A DNA stretch of 34,563 nt from an uncultured Methanobrevibacter sp. (GTDB lineage: Archaea > Methanobacteriota > Methanobacteria > Methanobacteriales > Methanobacteriaceae), in NCBI GenBank assembly GCA_900314605.1, contig OMVX01000033.1, forward strand, positions 1 to 34,563, written 5' to 3'. The translations under genes were made by a program, and so were the position numbers. The stretch's first letter is position 1; each line of letters begins with the position of its first letter. Below, piece by piece: positions 16,319-29,859 of this stretch. The notes beneath the pieces are model-generated. The model was not told the DNA's origin, ran no database searches, and was given only the letters and a program-made list of their open reading frames with translations.

Positions 16319-17686
16319 ATGAATAAAATTATTTGTCTTGTTGATGGTGAACATTATTTACCTGTTACTAAATCGGCAGTTTTAACTATTAATGATTCTA
16401 ATCATAATGAAGTTCAGGCTATTGTTTTTATTGGAGGAACAGAAAAATTAAAAACTGAAAATCATGAAGAATATTCAAAACTTATGGGTTTTCCTGTATA
16501 CTTTGGAGATGATTATGGAGAAATTCCTTATGATTTAATTGAAGAAGTGATTGATAAATATGGTCCTGATTGTGTTATGGATTTATCTGATGAACCGGTT
16601 CTTGATTATTCTAAAAGGTTTAAAATAGCATCCTGTGTTTTATCACGTGGACTTATATATGAAGGACCAGATTTTAGATTTGAACCTCCAACCCAAGCAG
16701 AAATTCCAGAAAAACCTAGTATAAAAATTATAGGAACAGGTAAAAGAATAGGTAAAACAGCTGTAAGTACTTATACCTCAAGATTAATTGAAAAAAATAA
16801 GTATAATCCTTGTGTTGTGGCAATGGGTAGAGGAGGTCCTGAAAAACCAGAACTTGTCCGTGGAGATTTAATGGAGATTACTCCTGAATTTTTAATGGAA
16901 CAATCTGAAAAAGGTGTTCACGCAGCTAGTGACCATTGGGAAGATGCATTAATGAGTAGAGTATTAACTATAGGTTGTAGACGTTGTGGTGGAGGTCTAT
17001 CTGGTGAAGTTTTTATGACTAATATGAAAGAAGGAGCAAAAATTGCAAATGAACAGGATAAAGACCTAATAATATTTGAAGGTAGTGGTGCAGCAATTCC
17101 TCCAATCAAAACAGATAAAAACATATTGTTAATAGGTGCTAATCAGAATCTTTTAAATATTGTAAATTTCTTTGGACCATTTAGGATAGGCCTTAGTGAT
17201 TTAGTTATACTTACAATGTGTGAAGAGCCAATGGTTAACAAAGAAAAAGTTCAGGAAATAATAGAGTTTATTTCTTCCTTAAAACCTGAAATTAATGTTA
17301 TTCCTACAGTATTTAGACCTAAACCTTTAAAAAATATTGAAGGTAAAAATGTTTTATTTGCAACTACTGCTCCAGAAGCAGTAAAAGATAAACTTGTGAA
17401 ATATTTGGAGAAAGAATATAAATGTAATATTGTTGGTACAACTTCACATCTATCTAACAGACCTCTTTTAAGAGAGGATATTAAAAAATATATGGCAGAT
17501 GCAGATTGTATGTTAACAGAACTTAAAGCAGCTGCAGTTGATGTTGCAACAAAAGAGGCTATTGAATCAGGTTTAGAAGTTGTTTATTCAGATAATATTC
17601 CTATTGTAATAGATGATGACTCTCCAGATATTGATTCAACTATATTAGAACTTGTAGACAGTGCAATTGAAGATTTTAATAAGTAA
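16319..17686 (+). CDS. cpgS: Cyclic 2,3-diphosphoglycerate synthetase
   Basis: The 455-residue enzyme closes 2,3-diphosphoglycerate to its cyclic form at the cost of ATP. This solute accumulates in Methanobacteriales as a phosphate and carbon store and protein stabiliser. The sequence fits family length and has a nucleotide-binding loop [13 protein letters not shown] at 138-150, the segment [18 protein letters not shown], and the strand [14 protein letters not shown], as in related P-loop ligases. The ATG at 16319 follows GGTG. An ATP-grasp gene follows after 81 bases on the same strand and may be co-transcribed. Confidence 0.9.
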
Positions 17687-20421: not shown

Positions 20422-21135
20422 TTAATAATCTATATCAAAGTCTTCTGTTGTAACAATTTCAGGTATTTTCCCAATAGTTCCAACTAATCCTCCCACTGTT
20501 ATAAGGCCACCATCAAAATATTCCTTATATTTTTCAGCAGATTCTAGTCCATTCATCATACTTTCTTCATCACTTTCTCCATTTACATCATTTGCTATTC
20601 TTGTTGCAAGTCCATCACATATACTTGCTTCAGGCCCTATAATTGTAACTGATTCTGAGTTTCCAAAACTTATGGAGTGACCTATTTTTGAGGAGGAGGT
20701 ACATATTCCAAGAGGTTTACTTCGAGGTTTTAATTTGAATCCAATGTTTTTAATTGTATTGGAGTATATGCCACAAACTAACTTTTTATTATTAATTATG
20801 GCTATGTCACCTCCGTTTTCAATGGAACTTAATTTGGATCCTTTCATTATTAATTGATTTAAACACATCTGTGATATTGTACCTGCTACACATGCCATAG
20901 GTCCAACATTTCCAATCTTACTTGATTTATCCATTATTCTAACAATTTCACTAGTGTTTACTCTTTTGTTTAATGGTTCAAGTGAACTTAGAAATTCTGG
21001 GTCTTCATAAATATATTTTTTCAAATCAAAACGTATTTTTTTAATATATTCCTCTAGATTCGGATATAAAATGTCAGAAATGAGGCGAATATGAGTCTCT
21101 TCAATATCAATGTGTTTTATTTTGTTTTTATACAT
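20422..21135 (-). CDS. UPF0280 family protein (ApbE-like superfamily)
   Basis: A 237-residue protein common in methanogens. Recognisable blocks are KIGNVGPMACVAGTISQ, SIENGGDIAIINNKK, GICTSSSKIGHSISFGNS and ADA-like ASICDGLATRIANDV. The family is distantly related to ApbE flavin transferases, but lacks a demonstrated activity as far as I know. The ATG at 21135 has only a weak upstream match (TTGATT). It is transcribed away from comA, with 228 bases shared between the two starts, and leads a two-gene unit with the ProC-like reductase. Confidence 0.85.
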   Translation of the reverse strand: MYKNKIKHIDIEETHIRLISDILYPNLEEYIKKIRFDLKKYIYEDPEFLSSLEPLNKRVNTSEIVRIMDKSSKIGNVGPMACVAGTISQMCLNQLIMKGSKLSSIENGGDIAIINNKKLVCGIYSNTIKNIGFKLKPRSKPLGICTSSSKIGHSISFGNSESVTIIGPEASICDGLATRIANDVNGESDEESMMNGLESAEKYKEYFDGGLITVGGLVGTIGKIPEIVTTEDFDIDY

Positions 21136-21363
21136 TTAAATCAATTTTTTTTAAAATTATTTATAATATGTTAAACTATATAATATCATTATAAATTTTA
21201 TTAGTATTTTATCAAAATTTTTAATATTGTTTAAAAAACTTATTAAATAAAATTTATTAATTATATATATTATAATAATTTTTATATTTAATTTTTATAA
21301 AAGAATATGATTTTAAACATTTAAAATATTGAATTTAATTAATTAAATAAAAAGATGATTTAT
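21136..21363. promoter_or_regulatory. Divergent promoter region of UPF0280 and comA
   Basis: The 228 bases between the opposed starts are nearly all A and T with several TATA-like stretches, such as AATTATATATATTATAATAA near 21259-21278. Both promoters must lie here, but they cannot be separated by eye. No operator-like palindrome stands out. Confidence 0.45.
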
Positions 21364-22140
21364 ATGAAAGGATTTGAATTTCTTATTAAAGAACGTGAAA
21401 ACAAACCTAGAGATATAGGTATGACAATGGTTTTAGATAAGGGTTTAGGATATGAAAGTGCTAAATCCTTAATGGAAATTTCAGCAGATTATGTTGACTA
21501 TTTAAAATTTGGCTGGGGAACTAGTGTTATTCAGGATGAAAATATTATCAAAGCGAAAGTTGAAATGTATAAAGATTTTCAAATTATTCCCTATACTGGA
21601 GGAACCCTTTTTGAACTTGCATATATGAATAATAATGTAGATTTGTTTTTTAAAAGAGCAAATGAATTAGGTTTTGAGGCAATTGAAATATCAAATGGAT
21701 CTACTGATTTAAGCTATGCTGATAAAATTGAATATATTAAACAGGCAAAAGATTTAGGTTTCCATGTTTTATCTGAGGTAGGTAAGAAGAACCCTGCTCT
21801 TGATAAGGATATTGGTCTTGAAGAGCGTGTTAAATATATGAATGAAGAATTAAAAGCAGGTTCATCTAAGGTAATTGTTGAGGCAAGAGAAGGAGGAAAA
21901 AATATAGGTATTTTTGATAAATCAGGTAATGCTAAAGCTGATGAAGTCGATTATATTTTAGATAATATTTCTGATAAAAATAAAATAATTTGGGAAGCTC
22001 CGCAAAAGGATCAACAAGTATACTTTGTTTTAAACTTAGGTTCAGATGTTAGTTTAGGAAATATTTCAACTGAGGATATTATATCTCTTGAAACCATTCG
22101 TCAGGGTCTTAGGGGAGATACATTAGGAAAATTAGATTAA
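21364..22140 (+). CDS. comA: Phosphosulfolactate synthase (ComA)
   Basis: The enzyme adds sulfite to phosphoenolpyruvate to give (R)-phosphosulfolactate, the first step of coenzyme M synthesis in this group. The 258-residue TIM-barrel protein shows the family blocks DYLKFGWGTSVI, IPYTGGTLFELAY, GFEAIEISNGS, HVLSEVGKKNP, SKVIVEAREGGKNIGIFD and IIWEAPQKDQQ. I chose the ATG at 21364 because AAGATGATTT lies just before it; the in-frame ATG at 21355 falls inside that binding site. The downstream marker-16 and Hdr-like genes run in the same direction, and comDE lies 7 kb away in the opposite direction. Confidence 0.95.
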   Translation: MKGFEFLIKERENKPRDIGMTMVLDKGLGYESAKSLMEISADYVDYLKFGWGTSVIQDENIIKAKVEMYKDFQIIPYTGGTLFELAYMNNNVDLFFKRANELGFEAIEISNGSTDLSYADKIEYIKQAKDLGFHVLSEVGKKNPALDKDIGLEERVKYMNEELKAGSSKVIVEAREGGKNIGIFDKSGNAKADEVDYILDNISDKNKIIWEAPQKDQQVYFVLNLGSDVSLGNISTEDIISLETIRQGLRGDTLGKLD

Positions 22141-22334
22141 AAAGATATTTATATAATAGTAACTTAAATAGTATATAAAAAATATAACAATTGATATATT
22201 TTTATAAAATTTTTTAAACGTTTTATATGTTTTTTATAAAATTTTATAGGAATTCTCAAAATCTATAAAACTACAATTTATATTTTCAATTTTTCTACTA
22301 TTATATATAAAATAAATTTATAGGGGATGTTTTT

Positions 22335-23606
22335 TTGTCTCGAACTATTGAAGAAATAAATCAGAAAATTCAAGAGGGTGATGTCCAGGTTTACTCTGCT
22401 CTTGATTTTAAACAAGCAATTAAAAATAATGAGACTATTCCTTTTGAAGAAGTTGATATAGTTACATGTGGTACTTGTGGAGTTATGAGTGGAACTAGTG
22501 CAATTTTTAATATTATTGTTGATGAACCAGGTTCCTTTAAAAAAGCAAAAAAAGTATTTTTAAACGGTATTGAAGCTCAAGTAGGTCCATGTCCTAATGA
22601 ATGGTTAGGTTCTATAGATTGTATCTTAAATGGTACAGCACATAGTAAGAATATAGAAGGATATGGCGGAGGATTTTTAATACATGACCTTTTAAAAGGT
22701 AGAGAAATTGATATTGAAGTAGAAGATATTGATGGTAAAATCATTAAATCAAAAACTACATTGGATGAGATTGTTACAGCTCAAATGATAGGTACCCGTA
22801 ATGCCTTTAAAAATTATACTGCATTTGTTAATCCGGGAGATAATCCTGTAAGTTCTATTTTTTATGCAAAAGAAATGGAAACAGGTTTTGATAAAATTTC
22901 ATTTTCTGGTTGTGGTGATATAAATCCACTTCAAAACGATCCTAATAGAATTGTTATTGATCAGGGAGCGAAAATTTTATTAAATGGTGCAGAAGGATTA
23001 GTTTTAGGACAAGGTACAAGGTCTTCTAATGAAAAACCAAATCTTATGCTTTCAGCAAATATTAAAGAAATGGATTCTCATTATGTTGGAGGATATAAAA
23101 CAGGTTTAGGTCCTGAAATATTTGATTCAGTAGCTATACCTATACCAGTACTAAATGAAGAAATTTATAATAATTTACTTATATTAAATGAAGATATTCC
23201 AATTCCAGTATCAGATATTCATGGTAGACATTTGCCTATATCTCAAACAGATTATGCTAAATTGTGGGATAATCATAGTAAAAGACCAAAATATGATGAG
23301 GAGAAATGTATAGCATGTGTAGAGTGTTTTGCTGAAAAATATTGTCCAACAAATGCTATCAAACACATGATTAAAAATAATAAAATAAACATTGAGTTTA
23401 ACTCAAGTGAATGTTTCGGTTGCGGTGTATGTGCAGAATATTGTGTAGGTAATGTATTTATTATGAATACAGGTTCTTTAACTATTAATCATGAAAACAC
23501 AAAGCATAACTTAAAGATTACCTCACGTCAATCTGATAAGGTCCGTGCATCTGATATAATCAATGAATTAAATGATAAAATTTTAAGTGGAGATTTTAAA
23601 CTTTAA
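22335..23606 (+). CDS. Methanogenesis marker 16 protein: DUF39 (homocysteine-biosynthesis-like) plus two 4Fe-4S clusters
   Basis: A 423-residue protein with a TTG start at 22335, fixed by AGGGGATG a few bases upstream. Residues 1-310 are a DUF39/COG1900 domain with conserved cysteines C45 and C48 (VTCGTCGVMSG), C86 (QVGPCPNEW), C96 and C193. Residues 320-378 hold two ferredoxin clusters: C325, C328, C331, C337 and C360, C363, C366, C370. Related DUF39 proteins carry out reductive thiolation of aspartate semialdehyde to homocysteine, so a sulfur-insertion reaction is a reasonable inference. Placement between comA and an Hdr-like complex suggests coenzyme M as the product, but this is not shown by sequence. 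Confidence 0.85.
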   Translation: MSRTIEEINQKIQEGDVQVYSALDFKQAIKNNETIPFEEVDIVTCGTCGVMSGTSAIFNIIVDEPGSFKKAKKVFLNGIEAQVGPCPNEWLGSIDCILNGTAHSKNIEGYGGGFLIHDLLKGREIDIEVEDIDGKIIKSKTTLDEIVTAQMIGTRNAFKNYTAFVNPGDNPVSSIFYAKEMETGFDKISFSGCGDINPLQNDPNRIVIDQGAKILLNGAEGLVLGQGTRSSNEKPNLMLSANIKEMDSHYVGGYKTGLGPEIFDSVAIPIPVLNEEIYNNLLILNEDIPIPVSDIHGRHLPISQTDYAKLWDNHSKRPKYDEEKCIACVECFAEKYCPTNAIKHMIKNNKINIEFNSSECFGCGVCAEYCVGNVFIMNTGSLTINHENTKHNLKITSRQSDKVRASDIINELNDKILSGDFKL

Positions 23607-23731
23607 GTTTTAAACTTTACTGTGATGATTGGTTTTAGTATAAATAATATAATTTTTTATGTTTTAAAATATAATTTATATTAAATCAATTTTAAAAAAT
23701 TATAATTAAATTAATAATTAGGGGTTTAATT

Positions 23732-24328
23732 ATGGATGAAAAATTTGAGCATGGTTCATTAGATCTTGCTCATTTTATAATGAATGATATTAAATTCGCT
23801 CAAGGAGAAAATCTTCTTAAATGTGTTCAATGCGGAATGTGTACCTCAGCTTGTCCTGGAGCACAGCACTCTGATTATAATCCTCGTGACATGATAGAAT
23901 ACATTTTGGAAGGAGATAATTCCATTATTGAAAGTGAAGATATATGGAATTGTTTTTATTGTTATACCTGTCATAGTATTTGTCCTGTTGGTAATAGTCC
24001 ATGTCAGGCTAATCAAGTATTAAAACAAATTGCAATAGATGAAGGTATTGCAGATGAACATTTAAGACCATTTTTAGGATTTGGAGATAGTTTTTTAAAT
24101 CATGGAATGGGTGGAATTCCTCAAAACTTTTTTAAAGAGATGAGAGAAGATATTGGTGAAGATTGGTGGGAATTTAAAAATCATCTTGATGATGTTAGAA
24201 CACAATTAGGTTTAGGTCCAGTTTATCCAGATGATGATTCTATAGAGGAAATTTCGACCATTTTGGTAAAATGTGGTTTTAAAGATAGAGTAGAGAAGAT
24301 ACGAGAAATTAAAGACTATGAGAAATAG
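23732..24328 (+). CDS. hdrC: Heterodisulfide reductase subunit C-like protein
   Basis: A 198-residue soluble iron-sulfur protein. Two complete 4Fe-4S motifs are present: C31, C34, C37, C41 (CVQCGMCTSACP) and C74, C77, C80, C84 (CFYCYTCHSICP). HdrC passes electrons from HdrA to the noncubane clusters of HdrB. The acidic C-terminal third is slightly longer than in classical HdrC. AGGGGT precedes the ATG. hdrB follows after 23 bases, so translation is probably coupled in one mRNA. Since the partner subunits here are unusual, this may be a paralogue rather than the main methanogenic Hdr; the symbol gives family only. Confidence 0.88.
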   Translation: MDEKFEHGSLDLAHFIMNDIKFAQGENLLKCVQCGMCTSACPGAQHSDYNPRDMIEYILEGDNSIIESEDIWNCFYCYTCHSICPVGNSPCQANQVLKQIAIDEGIADEHLRPFLGFGDSFLNHGMGGIPQNFFKEMREDIGEDWWEFKNHLDDVRTQLGLGPVYPDDDSIEEISTILVKCGFKDRVEKIREIKDYEK

Positions 24329-24351
24329 AAATTTAATGTGTAGGTTAAATT

Positions 24352-25407
24352 ATGAAACAAATTCCAGATAAAAACATTTTACTTTTTAAAAGTTGTCTTG
24401 TAAGTATAGAATATCCAGGAGTTGAATCCTCTACTACTTTTGTATTTGATAAAATTGGGGTAGATTATTTTGTAAGTAGAGAGCAAACATGTTGTACGGG
24501 TTTAGGTCATTACTCTGATGTTTTTGATCAGTTTACAACAACTGTTAATGGTGCAAGACATTTTGCACTTTCACACAAATTGAATAGGCCTAATTTTGCC
24601 ATGATGTGTGCAACCTGTTATGCAATTAATAAACGTGTTGCTAATTTATTAAATGAAAATGATGAATTAAGAGATTCTGTAAATGATGTTTTTGATGATT
24701 GTGGCTTTGAATGGATGAAATATGAAAAGGATGATATTACCTCTCGTGAAAATATTTTCCATGTCATAGATATATTCTACAGTAAAAGAAAGGAAATTGC
24801 CGAAAATATTAAATATGATTTTTCTGATTTTAAAATAGCAACTCATCATGGTTGTCATTATTGTAAGGCACATTATCATGATACTATTGAAGGAGTTAGA
24901 AATCCACATATTATAGACGATGTTGTTAATGCATGTGGTGTTGAAACTGTTGGTTGGTATGATTTTAAGAGGGCTACTTGTGGAAATGGTTTTTCACAAA
25001 GATTTGTACATAAAGATTTGTCTATGGATGCAACAAATGATAAATTCAAATCTCTTAAAGATAAAAATACAGAAATTTTAATACACTTATGCCCTAACTG
25101 TCATATTCAATTTGACAGATATCAGCCTTATATGGAGAAACATTATGGTGAAAAATTAGATATAATAAATTTAAATATTGCACAATTTTTAGCTATTGCA
25201 ATGGGTGCTGATCCATATAATGTAGTAGGTATACAAACACATACTGTTCCTGTTGAACCCCTTTTTGATAGATTAAAACTATTATCTGATGAGGATAAGA
25301 AAATGATTATAGAAAATGTTTCTCGTAAAGTAGATTTAGATAATTCTGCTGATTTTAATATGGAAGCAGATACAATTAAAGTAGATTTTAAAAAGGGGGC
25401 TAAATAA
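24352..25407 (+). CDS. hdrB: Heterodisulfide reductase subunit B-like protein with altered second CCG motif
   Basis: A 351-residue protein, about 50 longer than classical HdrB. The first CCG domain is intact: C15, C47-C48 (TCCTG), C86 and C89 (MCATCY). The second has C168 (HHGCHYC), C210, C247 and C250 (CPNCH), but the first Cys of the CC pair is Thr209 (ATCGNG), and an extra Cys171 appears. In HdrB, each CCG motif holds a noncubane 4Fe-4S cluster where the CoM-S-S-CoB disulfide is cleaved. Loss of one ligand argues for different chemistry or a different cluster. A polar extension of 60 residues ends the protein. Ribosome binding site AGGTTA. Confidence 0.87.
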   Translation: MKQIPDKNILLFKSCLVSIEYPGVESSTTFVFDKIGVDYFVSREQTCCTGLGHYSDVFDQFTTTVNGARHFALSHKLNRPNFAMMCATCYAINKRVANLLNENDELRDSVNDVFDDCGFEWMKYEKDDITSRENIFHVIDIFYSKRKEIAENIKYDFSDFKIATHHGCHYCKAHYHDTIEGVRNPHIIDDVVNACGVETVGWYDFKRATCGNGFSQRFVHKDLSMDATNDKFKSLKDKNTEILIHLCPNCHIQFDRYQPYMEKHYGEKLDIINLNIAQFLAIAMGADPYNVVGIQTHTVPVEPLFDRLKLLSDEDKKMIIENVSRKVDLDNSADFNMEADTIKVDFKKGAK

Positions 25408-25471
25408 TGTTAATAAAAAGCCTAATTTTTAAATCAATAATTTTATTCAACTTATTTTTAGTGGTGATTTA

Positions 25472-27802
25472 ATGGTTTCTGATAATTTAAAGGTTGGAGT
25501 TTTTATTTGTAAATGTGGTGGAAACATTTCTGATGTTATAGATATAGAAAGAGTTAAAGAATCTATTGATGCAGATGTTATAGAAGAGTATACTAATTTA
25601 TGTTCTATTAACGGACGAAAAATTATCAGAGATAAAGTAATTGGAGATGAATTGGATAGGGTTGTAATTGCTGCCTGTTCTACCCAATCACATTTAAAAA
25701 CATTTCAAGCATATGTACAACCATTAAATCCCTATTTGATGGATATGGCTAATATTCGTGAGCAATGTTCATGGGTACACAGTACTACTGATGATGATTT
25801 TAATCAAAAAGCAACAGACAAAGTTATTACACTTATTAATGCTTCAATTGGTAAGGTTTCAAAATCTGAACCAGTTGACCCAATCGTTGTTCAAACTCCA
25901 AATAGTGCTGCTGTTGTTGGTGGAGGAATTTCAGGTATGAGTGCAGCATTATCACTTGGAAAACAAGGTATTAAAACTTATTTGATTGAAGAATCTCCAT
26001 CTATAGGTGGACATATGGCAAAGATTGGTAAAGTTTTCTCACCAGTTAAAATTGCTGAGGAATGTGGTCTATGTCTGTTAAATCCTGTATTAAATGATGT
26101 TGTTTGGAATGAAAATATTGAAGTAATGACAAATAGTAAAGTCGTTAAGGCTAACAGAAGAGCAGGTAGTTTTAATCTATTAGTTGAAACTAAACCACGA
26201 TATGTTGACAGTGAAAAATGTTTGTCTTGTGGAGATTGTGTGGATGTTTGTGATAAATTAATACCTAATGATTGGAATGATGGTCTTACAAATAGAAAAG
26301 CTATTTATAAACCATTTGCACAGTGTTATCCAGATAGTTATGTAATTGATATTGATAATTGTGACAAATGTGGAGACTGTAAAAGGGAATGTAAAATGGA
26401 TGCTATCAGCTTTAGAAGAGAAAATGAAATGATTCCTCTTGAAGTTGGTTCAGTGATTTTAGCTACAGGTCATAAATTATTTGATCCAGATTTACGTCCA
26501 GAATATGGTTATAGTAGGTTTAAGGATGTTATAACTCAAAGTGAACTTGGAAGGATTTTAGGTGTAAATGGACCTACTAAAGGTAAATTTCAATGTTTAT
26601 CTAATGGGGAGGTTCCTAAAAATGTAGTAATGATACAGTGTGTTGGTTCAAGAGATGATACTCCTAATGGTCATAAATATTGTTCTAAAGTTTGTTGTAT
26701 GGTGGCACTTAAGAATGCTAATATTATTAAACATAAATATCCTGATACTAATATTATCATCTGTTATACTGACATCCGAACTCCTGGAATGTTTGAAAAA
26801 TATTATAAACATGCACAAGCAAGTGGAATTAGACTTGTAAGAGGTCGTCCTGGTGAGGTTGGTAAGAAAGATGGCCACCTTGTTGTAAGAGTTGAAGATA
26901 CAGTTAAACGTGAATTTAAGGAACTTGATGCAGATATGGTAGTTTTATCTACTGCAATAGAACCTTCCGAAGGAACTAATGAAATTGCTAAAATATTCGA
27001 TGTATCACAATCTGAAGATAATTTTATTAAAGAAGCTAATCCTAAAATCAAACCTGTTACTACAGATATTCAAGGTGCATTTGTTGCAGGTACAGCACAA
27101 GATCCTAAAGATATTACTGATAGTATATTGCAGGCTACTGCTTCAGCAAGTAAGGTATCAGAAATTGTAAGTAATGGTATTGAAATTGAACCATTTATTG
27201 CTGATGTAGATTATGAAATATGTGATTTATGTGGAGAATGTATAGAAGTTTGTAAGTATAAATCCATGTCTATAGAAAAAGATAGGATATTTATAGATCC
27301 TATGAGCTGTTCAGGGTGTGGAAATTGTATTGCTAAATGTGATAAAAATGCTATTAGTATTAATGGTAATATTGATGAGATGATCTTTTCTACTATTGAT
27401 GGAATACTTAAAGATAAAAAACCAGGTGAAAAACGTATAATTGCATTTTTAGATGATATTGGATATACTGCAGCAGATAATATTGGTATTAACAGATTAT
27501 CTTATCCTGAGTCTATTCATATTATTAAGGTTATTTCAGTAAATAGGGTAATGCCAAAACATATTATACATGCACTTAAAACTGGTGCTGATGGTATATT
27601 TATTGGTGAATATCCTGGAGACCTGTTATATGATGAGATTGAACATAATATGAAGAAAATCAGACGTGAAATAGAAATGAATAATATGAATCCTGAAAGA
27701 TTAGCATTTTCTAAGGTTTATATTCCATATTTCTCTGGTTTAGCTCGTAAATTTATTGAATTTGATTCTAAAATAGATGAAATAAATGATTTAGCTAAAT
27801 AA
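25472..27802 (+). CDS. hdrA: HdrA-like flavoprotein fused to a cysteine-free MvhD-like domain
   Basis: 776 residues against about 655 for classical HdrA. In order: N-terminal domain with C13, C15 (ICKCGGN), C44, C69 and C99; Rossmann/FAD motif VVGGGISGMSAAL at 148-160; ECGLCLLNP with C198 and C201; inserted ferredoxin C250, C253, C256, C260 and C297, C300, C303, C307; C-terminal ferredoxins C584, C587, C590, C594 and C613, C616, C619, C623. Residues about 655-770 align to MvhD (RIIAFLDDIGYTAADNIG, INRLSYPESIHIIKV, GADGIFIGEYPGD), yet contain no Cys, so the usual 2Fe-2S site is gone. HdrA-MvhD fusions exist as HdrA2 in Methanosarcina. GGTGATTTA precedes the ATG. The role is probably flavin-based electron delivery to HdrBC; the donor is unknown. 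Confidence 0.88.
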   Translation: MVSDNLKVGVFICKCGGNISDVIDIERVKESIDADVIEEYTNLCSINGRKIIRDKVIGDELDRVVIAACSTQSHLKTFQAYVQPLNPYLMDMANIREQCSWVHSTTDDDFNQKATDKVITLINASIGKVSKSEPVDPIVVQTPNSAAVVGGGISGMSAALSLGKQGIKTYLIEESPSIGGHMAKIGKVFSPVKIAEECGLCLLNPVLNDVVWNENIEVMTNSKVVKANRRAGSFNLLVETKPRYVDSEKCLSCGDCVDVCDKLIPNDWNDGLTNRKAIYKPFAQCYPDSYVIDIDNCDKCGDCKRECKMDAISFRRENEMIPLEVGSVILATGHKLFDPDLRPEYGYSRFKDVITQSELGRILGVNGPTKGKFQCLSNGEVPKNVVMIQCVGSRDDTPNGHKYCSKVCCMVALKNANIIKHKYPDTNIIICYTDIRTPGMFEKYYKHAQASGIRLVRGRPGEVGKKDGHLVVRVEDTVKREFKELDADMVVLSTAIEPSEGTNEIAKIFDVSQSEDNFIKEANPKIKPVTTDIQGAFVAGTAQDPKDITDSILQATASASKVSEIVSNGIEIEPFIADVDYEICDLCGECIEVCKYKSMSIEKDRIFIDPMSCSGCGNCIAKCDKNAISINGNIDEMIFSTIDGILKDKKPGEKRIIAFLDDIGYTAADNIGINRLSYPESIHIIKVISVNRVMPKHIIHALKTGADGIFIGEYPGDLLYDEIEHNMKKIRREIEMNNMNPERLAFSKVYIPYFSGLARKFIEFDSKIDEINDLAK

Positions 27803-27955
27803 TTATTTCATTTTTTTATTTTATTATTTTCATGAAAATTTATTGAAATATAAAAATTTAAACCAGAATTTATAATTTAGACTAATAATTTCTTTTTTAA
27901 GTTTAATATAAATTTGTAATTTTATGATTAAATCAGATTTTTATAAGATGATATT

Positions 27956-28753
27956 ATGGCATTATTGGATATTAGATTTAAATCATTAGAATTAGGAAGA
28001 AATGTTTCTATAACTGCAATTCTTCCAGTAGATCATATAGATTATGTTAATAAAGTTAATACATCATCTAACCCGCCTTATAAAACTTTATATTTATTAA
28101 ATGGTTTATATGGTGATTCATCTGAATGGATTACACATACAAATATTAAAGTACTAGCTGAGGTTAATAATCTTTGTGTTATAATGCCTAGTGGTGAAAA
28201 CAGTTTTTATAGAAATCAGGGTGAAGGTAGAAATTATTCTAATTTTATTGGCCAGGAACTTTTAACTATTACTCGAAATATGTTTAATTTATCTCGAAAA
28301 AGAGAAGATACATTTATTGGAGGGTATAGTATGGGAGCTTATGGTGCATTATATAATGGTTTAAAATATCATCATAACTTTTCTAAAATAGTAGGATTAT
28401 CTCCAGTATTAAAACTTGATTATTCAGTTAATAAATCAACCAAACCCTCTTCCCATTATAGTTTAAGTTTTCTTGAAAATTGCTTTGGTTCATTAGAAAA
28501 TATGGATATTAATGAAATTAATCCAGAGTATCTTTTAAAAAATCTCATTGCAAATGATAAAAGGGTTCCGGATATTTATCTTTCATGTGCTGAGGATGAT
28601 GAGATTTTAATTAATCCTACACGTAAATTTAAAGAAGTTTTAAATAAATATAAAGATAATGTTAATTATACTTATAGTGAAGGTCGAGGAGGCCATAACT
28701 GGCAGTACTGGGATAGGCAATTAGAAAGTATAATTAATTGGATAGTTAAGTAA
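27956..28753 (+). CDS. Alpha/beta-hydrolase esterase, EstA/S-formylglutathione hydrolase-like
   Basis: A 265-residue soluble protein of the putative esterase family. The nucleophile is S125 in FIGGYSMGAYGAL, the oxyanion region is LYLLNGLYGDSSEW, the acid is D214 or D215 (CAEDDEIL), and the catalytic His is H247 (EGRGGHNWQYWD). No signal peptide is seen, so it acts in the cytoplasm on a small ester or thioester; the substrate cannot be told. GATGAT precedes the ATG. It lies 153 bases after the HdrA-like gene and is convergent with comE (54 bases), so it may end the same transcript or stand alone. Confidence 0.88.
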   Translation: MALLDIRFKSLELGRNVSITAILPVDHIDYVNKVNTSSNPPYKTLYLLNGLYGDSSEWITHTNIKVLAEVNNLCVIMPSGENSFYRNQGEGRNYSNFIGQELLTITRNMFNLSRKREDTFIGGYSMGAYGALYNGLKYHHNFSKIVGLSPVLKLDYSVNKSTKPSSHYSLSFLENCFGSLENMDINEINPEYLLKNLIANDKRVPDIYLSCAEDDEILINPTRKFKEVLNKYKDNVNYTYSEGRGGHNWQYWDRQLESIINWIVK

Positions 28754-28807
28754 GTCTATTAAAAATATAATTAATATTTTTGTATTGATTTTTTCCTAAT
28801 CTTTTAT

Positions 28808-29350
28808 TTACTTTTGTATTTCGCTCATAAACCTGTCTCTTACCTCATCAGGTGATAAGTCTATTACGGGTGCATCAGAGTTTCCTGCTTCTAATTTATA
28901 TTCTATAAATGTACATTTATTACTGTCTAATATTTCTTTAAAATTTATTTGACTAAATTCATATGCATTTTCAAATCCAGAATCTTTTGCTATTTGGACT
29001 AAATCCATATCTGCCATATATGTTGTTTGATTTCCTGTTGAACCATATGCTCCATTGTTTATAACTATCCATATAAGATTATCACACTGATTATGGGATG
29101 TGGTTATAAGTGAGCCCATATTCATAAGTAGTGAACCATCACCATCTATTACAACAACAGTTTCTTCTTGGCTTAATGCAAGACCCAGGCCTATTGATTC
29201 TACAAGCCCCATTGATCCGATCATATAGAAATTACGGCTTCGGTCTTTTACTTGGAATAATTCTTTTGTTGGAACACCTATATTACATACAACAAGTTCA
29301 TTGGTTATATCTTTCATTATTTCTTTTATTCCATCTATTCTCCTAGCCAT
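28808..29350 (-). CDS. comE: Sulfopyruvate decarboxylase, beta subunit
   Basis: The 180-residue subunit carries the thiamine diphosphate binding part of sulfopyruvate decarboxylase: VVIDGDGSLLMNMGSL at about 68-83, with the paired Asn-Asn of IWIVINNGAYGS completing the GDG-NN motif that binds Mg and diphosphate. With ComD it makes sulfoacetaldehyde, the last well-defined intermediate of coenzyme M synthesis. Its GGAGG binding site lies inside the end of comD and the start is two bases after the comD stop, so the two subunits are translationally coupled. It is convergent with the esterase gene. Confidence 0.94.
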   Translation of the reverse strand: MARRIDGIKEIMKDITNELVVCNIGVPTKELFQVKDRSRNFYMIGSMGLVESIGLGLALSQEETVVVIDGDGSLLMNMGSLITTSHNQCDNLIWIVINNGAYGSTGNQTTYMADMDLVQIAKDSGFENAYEFSQINFKEILDSNKCTFIEYKLEAGNSDAPVIDLSPDEVRDRFMSEIQK

Positions 29351-29352
29351 TT

Positions 29353-29859
29353 TTAGTCCTCCTTAAGTTTCCAGTATGGTATTTCAAGTAAAATACTAAA
29401 TGCTTTTTTATCTTTTGTAGTTTTTGTCCATGAGTTCTTAACAGTTTCATAAGCTTCTTTAATACTTTCTGGTTTAACATATTCTAAATTAATTGCTTTA
29501 AGAATATCCGGTGTAGCTTTACCCATAGGGACCTGACCAATAATGGATTCTCCTTCTGTTCCTCTATGACTCATTATCATTACAAGTGGAAATGAATATA
29601 GTTCATATAATGAACATAAAGCATTAACACAGTTTCCAAGACCTGAATTCTGCATTAGTATTCCAGTTTTTTTCCCTGCCATATATGCACCTGCACATAT
29701 TCCAAGTCCTTCTTCTTCCCGGCTTACAGGTATATGAGTAATTGTATCATCTTCATCAATCATTATTAATAATTTTTTTAAATTAGCACAGGGTACACTT
29801 ACAATAAAATCTATACCTGCATCCTTTAGTCCTTTAAAAATCGCTTCACTACTGTCCAT
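29353..29859 (-). CDS. comD: Sulfopyruvate decarboxylase, alpha subunit
   Basis: The 168-residue subunit provides the PYR domain of the ThDP enzyme. Visible family blocks are FIVSVPCANLKKLL, THIPVSREEEGLGICAGAYM (the Glu that activates thiamine), GILMQNSGLGNCVNAL, LVMIMSHRGTEGE and the C-terminal ILLEIPYWKL. It precedes comE by two bases, giving the usual one-to-one complex. GGTGAG before the ATG at 29859 is the ribosome binding site. In some methanogens ComD and ComE are fused; here they are separate. The 292-base gap to fprA contains promoters for both directions. Confidence 0.94.
   Translation of the reverse strand: MDSSEAIFKGLKDAGIDFIVSVPCANLKKLLIMIDEDDTITHIPVSREEEGLGICAGAYMAGKKTGILMQNSGLGNCVNALCSLYELYSFPLVMIMSHRGTEGESIIGQVPMGKATPDILKAINLEYVKPESIKEAYETVKNSWTKTTKDKKAFSILLEIPYWKLKED

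Follow-up and report, generated by a model that had tools for sequence, protein, structure and literature searches.

Biological methane formation depends on coenzyme M (CoM), and where the electrons and sulfur for the last step of CoM synthesis come from is an acknowledged open question. Here we analyze a locus of an uncultured Methanobrevibacter sp. on a contig of 34,563 nucleotides (OMVX01000033.1, assembly GCA_900314605.1; this whole stretch is called the window below), in which comA, comD, comE and the gene for methanogen marker protein 16 (MMP16, or ComF) stand together with hdrC, hdrB and hdrA genes for a complex resembling heterodisulfide reductase (Hdr). MMP16 was proposed as the CoM synthase (White 2019, cited in PMC12713407) and has been shown genetically to be the primary CoM synthase of Methanosarcina acetivorans (Chadwick et al., 2025; PMC12068725); the thiolating role that the original prediction gave to marker 16 from the window alone is thus correct, but already published. 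In the main text of the Chadwick study, the sulfur species and the number of electrons (2 or 4) of the MMP16 step are called unknown, MMP16 is described as clustering and correlating with sulfoacetaldehyde genes, its neighbors are given as an ATPase, a GTPase and COG2000, not Hdr, and Hdr appears only as a transcriptional response. The same paper describes MA1715, the M. acetivorans homologue of COG2122, as a protein that L-ASST needs to assimilate sulfide efficiently.

Among the closest described systems is HdrA1B1C1 of M. acetivorans (MA3126-3128), called a 'ferredoxin-type heterodisulfide reductase'. In its deletion mutant total CoM falls from 28.2 to 16.7 nmol/mg (41% less), coenzyme B (CoB) is below detection and the cysteate synthase and comDE transcripts rise; sulfide, or CoM together with acetate, gives a partial rescue (PMC12713407, PMC9963511). 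The authors explain this phenotype by slower heterodisulfide reduction (PMC12713407); a role in thiol synthesis, extending beyond CoM alone, would fit it as well.

The window groups MMP16, comA and comDE in a single locus and has the same predicted reaction, as in the described CoM systems (White 2019; PMC12068725), but adds a dedicated hdrCBA within the operon and a COG2122 gene alongside. Its HdrB belongs with that of M. acetivorans to one supported group (HdrB1) apart from canonical HdrB in our tree, and the two complexes share the subfamily, a threonine at position 209 of HdrB and a cysteine-free MvhD-like domain; they differ in an extra Cys171 in the Methanobacteriaceae, in gene order (C-B-A versus A-C-B) and in the placement here within a CoM operon. 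Compared with canonical HdrABC-MvhAGD (PDB 5odc and others), the HdrA, HdrB and HdrC folds, as judged by sequence, and most cluster cysteines are retained, whereas HdrB and HdrA are about 28% and 38% identical, respectively, to their canonical counterparts in the same genome, the second CCG motif is altered, the MvhD domain is fused and cysteine-free, and the locus has no hydrogenase genes. The known COG1900 system likewise combines a COG1900 domain, ferredoxin electron supply and a COG2122 sulfur partner; here COG2122 goes with MMP16 and the CoM genes.

Results

Open reading frame calling and curated profile searches of the translations gave the order comA, MMP16, hdrC, hdrB, hdrA on the forward strand with comE and comD facing them, just as originally predicted, except that comA starts at 21355 and not at 21364. 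ComA, ComD, ComE and MMP16 all exceed the curated cut-offs, as expected of a CoM locus of the phosphoenolpyruvate pathway, and HdrA, HdrB and HdrC exceed those of NF041891, NF041780 and NF041890, which places them in the HdrA1B1C1 subfamily. MMP16 consists of a COG1900 domain and a 2x[4Fe-4S] ferredoxin domain in which all 8 cysteines are present in a cysteine alignment. No second COG1900 protein was found in the window genome (2.37 Mb, 99% complete; the window is its contig 56), where the other TIGR03287 matches cover the ferredoxin domain only.

The association was followed through a family set of 130 Methanobacteriaceae genomes (genera are coded g, genomes G and loci L; we take g5 to be the M. 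smithii group, g10 the M. ruminantium group and g2 M. curvatus). MMP16 and HdrB1 (NF041780) lie at most 5 kb apart in 62 of the 97 genomes carrying both: 3/3 in g1, 49/50 in g5, 2/2 in g6, 5/5 in g10, 1/1 in g15 and 2/4 in g16. Four Methanobrevibacter-like genera carry MMP16-hdrCBA as a tight operon, with median gaps of 15, 9, -4 and -4 nt, and in G106 (L081) the cassette occurs twice in tandem, having been copied as a unit. The COG2122 gene adjoins com or hdr genes in g1, g2, g5, g6, g10 and g15. Where hdrCBA lies away from the com genes (L042/L140, L050, L034, L043, L047, L049), its neighbors are cysE-cysK, ThiF/MoeB, cysS and sufBC, and in g7 and g16 it lies near mvhDGAB. In other genera the genes that separate ComA from MMP16 were considered as an ATPase-type electron module; this was rejected, as their translations look like alaS, ribosomal-protein, ftsZ-like and thiI-like products.

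Linkage recurs in other arrangements and lineages. M. curvatus (L032) has hdrCBA-comD-x-comE followed by COG2122; g15 (L046) has comED-COG2122-hdrABC, a ThiF/MoeB-like gene, MMP16 and SsuA; in g16 (L048, L082), second copies form hdrC-hdrB-MMP16b, adjoined by a ThiF/MoeB-like gene and a sulfonate transporter; and G035 (L085) carries hdrC-MMP16b-metY-metX-cysE. Among the Methanosarcinaceae, G509 (L196) combines cysteate synthase-comDE, MMP16, an MreA regulator, hdrA-C-B and a HacA/LeuC-family gene. In 6 of 12 genomes of the Methanosarcina phylum outside this family, an HdrC-HdrB fusion of 475-535 aa directly precedes MMP16, and in our tree a long, supported branch parts it from canonical HdrB and leaves it with HdrB1. 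At these loci comA comes next in L178 and L181, cysteate synthase and mostly also comDE are present in L176, L179, L180 and L177, and L176 has SsuABC-type transporter genes. The Hdr-MMP16 link therefore holds with either upstream CoM pathway, which makes the shared last step the natural common denominator.

In further Methanosarcinaceae loci (L143, L144, L146, L154, L155, L188-L190, and again L196), a HacA/LeuC-family gene follows hdrA1-C1-B1 and a gene for an MreA-family regulator often precedes it. A true AksD/HacA would point to CoB synthesis; reading this neighbor as CoB-specific is unsupported, as its 534-544 bits fall short of the HacA cut-off (550).

Across the family set HdrB1 and MMP16 occur together in 97 genomes, HdrB1 alone in 3, MMP16 alone in 8 and neither in 22 (Fisher p=2.5e-15, a value that ignores shared ancestry); at a completeness of at least 90% the counts are 68, 1, 2 and 8, where two of the eight apparent double losses (G032, G117) are contig ends and not deletions. 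In the Methanosarcina phylum (296 genomes), MMP16 is found in 20/20 HdrB1 genomes compared with 112/276 of the others, and among 112 Methanosarcinaceae genomes 47 have HdrB1, about 50 have MMP16 without it and 12 have neither. HdrB1 is thus nested within the distribution of MMP16, yet MMP16 does not require HdrB1.

We take the genome G026 to be M. ruminantium M1; ComA, ComD, MMP16, COG2122, HdrA1 and HdrB1 are missing from it, and five genomes of the same genus (G039, G044, G052, G058, G061) resemble it. M. ruminantium M1 is reported to require CoM and to be without comA, comD and comE (PMC2812497). In two g5 genomes (G048, G096; L059, L060) comDE are kept, while the M. smithii block hdrA-hdrB-hdrC-MMP16-comA-x-COG2122-proC-like is cleanly deleted, with intact flanks and no remnants found by tblastn; from their gene content, both are newly predicted CoM auxotrophs, whose comDE are orphaned and diverging. 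All CoM-auxotroph genomes retain canonical HdrA and HdrB. Since cells importing CoM should keep a recycler of CoM disulfides, the absence of the Hdr-like complex from them favors a role in making CoM. Genomes were also searched for auxotrophs without comA and comDE that keep intact MMP16 and the Hdr set, the outcome named in advance as fatal to the original prediction, and the search did not refute it. Methanimicrococcus and Methanolapillus, reported as CoM auxotrophs with HdrA2B2C2 only (PMC11362671), proved uninformative as a case of unlinked co-loss because many CoM-making Methanosarcinaceae also lack HdrB1. The Methanorudis MAG Th196P4 bin56 is cited as being without CoM synthesis (PMC13135261); it has hdrC-hdrB1 (L087), and there is a ComA match in the matching genome G033 (68% complete), so its apparent auxotrophy may reflect an incomplete assembly.

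The cluster ligands set the complex apart from canonical Hdr. The first CCG motif of the window HdrB is intact and the second is altered, with T209 replacing a cysteine and a new Cys171. One paired cysteine of the second motif is lost in 104/104 HdrB1 sequences (to T in 97) and kept in 4/4 canonical ones, and HdrB1 therefore departs from the canonical pattern of five cysteines per motif (C..CC..CxxC) binding two noncubane clusters; from the known role of this motif, the HdrB active site should differ. Position 171 has gained a cysteine in 88/89 Methanobacteriaceae and is Y in the Methanosarcinaceae. In the alignment HdrC retains all eight of its [4Fe-4S] cysteines, and HdrA likewise conserves the aligned Fe-S cysteines in its ferredoxin and FAD domains. 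The HdrA C-terminus is an FlpD/MvhD domain (Pfam E=1.4e-24), as the original 'HdrA-MvhD type' implied, but one without cluster ligands: no cysteine of this domain is conserved in 92 HdrA1 sequences and the window copy has none at all. The features of an electron-bifurcating HdrABC-MvhAGD complex are hence missing, both the MvhD [2Fe-2S] cysteines and any hydrogenase or formate dehydrogenase gene in the locus, and electrons from those enzymes cannot enter by the usual MvhD cluster.

MMP16 itself has changed in some of these lineages. The proteins of g2, g4, g7 and g15 and the second g16 copy form one clade that has lost 4/8 ferredoxin cysteines, is confined to HdrB1-bearing genera and adjoins hdrC/hdrB in g15 and g16. 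This decay would be expected if HdrC(B) took over electron delivery, and counts as a single evolutionary event. The degenerate proteins (L046, L048, L082, L066, L067, L085, L197-L203) keep their catalytic-domain cysteines, and are the sole MMP16 copies seen in g2, g4 and g7.

Table 1. Genes of the window in and beside the CoM locus, with profile scores and cut-offs in bits.
Feature	Position	Strand	Profile match
COG2122/UPF0280 gene (M. acetivorans MA1715 homologue)	20422-21135	-	PRK04334.1-1, 232 (cut-off 262)
comA, phosphosulfolactate synthase	21355-22140	+	TIGR03849, 327 (cut-off 280)
MMP16/comF (marker 16), coenzyme M synthase	22335-23606	+	TIGR03287, 537 (cut-off 364)
hdrC1-type subunit	23732-24328	+	NF041890, 319 (cut-off 270)
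hdrB1-type subunit	24352-25407	+	NF041780, 532 (cut-off 450)
hdrA1-type subunit	25472-27802	+	NF041891, 1347 (cut-off 1300)
esterase-family gene, between hdrA and comE	27956-28753		
comE, sulfopyruvate decarboxylase beta	28808-29350	-	TIGR03846, 222.4 (cut-off 221.5)
comD, sulfopyruvate decarboxylase alpha	29353-29859	-	TIGR03845, 218 (cut-off 148)

The TIGR03287 match begins at residue 22 of MMP16, so translation may really begin some 60 nt past the TTG at 22335. The COG2122 gene, immediately upstream and just outside the range first proposed for the locus, belongs with it; the window copy falls below the equivalog line (Table 1), and homologues from more distant genera score above it. Its product is likely the sulfur partner of MMP16. 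A conserved gene of 455-467 aa and unknown function (16319-17686 in the window; L034, L038, L059) recurs around the com/hdr region in g1 and g5, is also found near hdrCBA in Methanosphaera and is retained by the putative CoM auxotrophs. Among the loci compared, the named one most closely related to the window genome is that of Methanobrevibacter sp. 87.7 (L095).

Discussion

On balance, we favor the reading that this locus makes CoM and that its HdrCBA, a non-canonical member of the HdrA1B1C1 class, serves the last, sulfur-inserting step; the Hdr-like complex probably helps to make CoM, not methane. In the known part of the pathway, ComA begins the synthesis, ComDE yields sulfoacetaldehyde and MMP16/ComF converts this to CoM, a step that takes 2 electrons with sulfide or 4 with elemental sulfur (S0). 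The electron donor, the direction of flow and the physical partner are what we infer. Ferredoxin would supply low-potential electrons to HdrA by way of the C-terminal ferredoxin domain, the donor not being a hydrogenase because the MvhD-like domain has no cluster ligands, and HdrA would pass them via HdrC to the altered HdrB site; HdrC/HdrB may then reduce either the clusters of MMP16 or persulfide-level sulfur handled by COG2122 and MMP16. For the idea that the Hdr-like complex is the electron source of MMP16, a functional link is supported by repeated independent clustering, nesting in the MMP16 distribution, absence from CoM-auxotroph genomes and degenerate canonical Hdr features, and MMP16 as the recipient, in place of a sulfur species or disulfide, is the more conjectural part. 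The MMP16 half of the original idea is known, and the Hdr half appears well supported by genome comparison and was not found in the literature searched (open-licence papers, without supplements).

Several observations pull in the other direction. MMP16 expressed in E. coli is cited as forming CoM without Hdr (in PMC12068725), and CoM alone fails to rescue the M. acetivorans hdrA1B1C1 mutant (PMC9963511). About half of the MMP16-bearing Methanosarcinaceae lack HdrB1, as do the Methanothermobacter-type and Methanothermus-type genomes, while G012/G013 and M. jannaschii have MMP16 but no HdrB1; many CoM prototrophs thus do without the complex, which is no universal requirement. Conversely, G158 (Methanosarcinaceae) carries HdrB1 without MMP16, with G502/G506 ambiguous, and several genera have hdrCBA away from the com genes, by cysEK, cysS, sufBC or mvh. 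Finally, the genes co-lost in auxotrophs form one contiguous block. This last point, seen in the G048/G096 deletion, and the fact that the linked MMP16 proteins of the four main genera are one clade, would also suit chance neighbors retained by descent in one clade without functional coupling. We regard such an origin as very improbable, given that other genera and a second major archaeal lineage show at least four additional linkages in which the gene order differs, and that the cassette was duplicated as a unit.

It could also be that the complex is a heterodisulfide reductase, as the M. acetivorans literature calls it, which recycles CoM and lies near com genes for no other reason than a shared part in managing the CoM thiol pool. 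The family names (NF041780, NF041890, NF041891), the overall homology to HdrABC, the interpretation of the M. acetivorans mutant by its authors (PMC12713407) and the adjacency to mvhDGAB in g7 and g16 are all in keeping with this, but auxotrophs, which would still need to reduce imported or heterodisulfide CoM, lack the complex and have kept canonical Hdr, the second CCG motif and the MvhD ligands are altered or lost family-wide, and the pairing with MMP16 is repeated, also as HdrCB without HdrA; we therefore consider recycling rather unlikely. We are equally skeptical, if not slightly more so, of a general sulfur-assimilation reductase, acting on persulfide, S0 or sulfite-level sulfur or as donor to several thiolases for cysteine, homocysteine, CoM and CoB, for which the CoM operon would be one use among others. 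Such an enzyme would be at home among the neighbors seen away from comA (cysE/cysK, ThiF/MoeB, metX/metY, cysS, sufBC and sulfonate transporters) and beside the HacA/LeuC-family gene of Methanosarcinaceae, and would account for the undetectable CoB and the sulfide rescue in M. acetivorans (PMC12713407, PMC9963511), whereas auxotrophs, with their continuing need for cysteine and CoB, would hardly lose it along with the CoM genes, nor would it almost never occur without MMP16.

The best reading remains a ferredoxin-driven reductase for the sulfur step of CoM synthase, possibly for sulfur assimilation generally: the recurring cysE/cysK, ThiF/MoeB, metXY and sufBC neighbors suggest that it may serve reductive sulfur chemistry more widely, which does not exclude the CoM role. 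More tentatively, and with some doubt on our part, HdrA1B1C1 and the HdrC-HdrB fusions might as a class be dedicated reductases of COG1900-type thiolation and not heterodisulfide reductases, taking the place of the CoM synthase ferredoxin domain or adding to it and, in Methanosarcinaceae, perhaps also serving CoB thiolation. A link between the Hdr-like complex and the last step of CoM synthesis, if true, would rename the widespread so-called second heterodisulfide reductase of gut and rumen methanogens and of Methanosarcina, and would account for the low CoM, the low CoB and the effects of sulfide that are puzzling in the M. acetivorans mutant. It would also show how rumen methanogens become CoM auxotrophs, and would give Hdr machinery a biosynthetic use that is directly testable.

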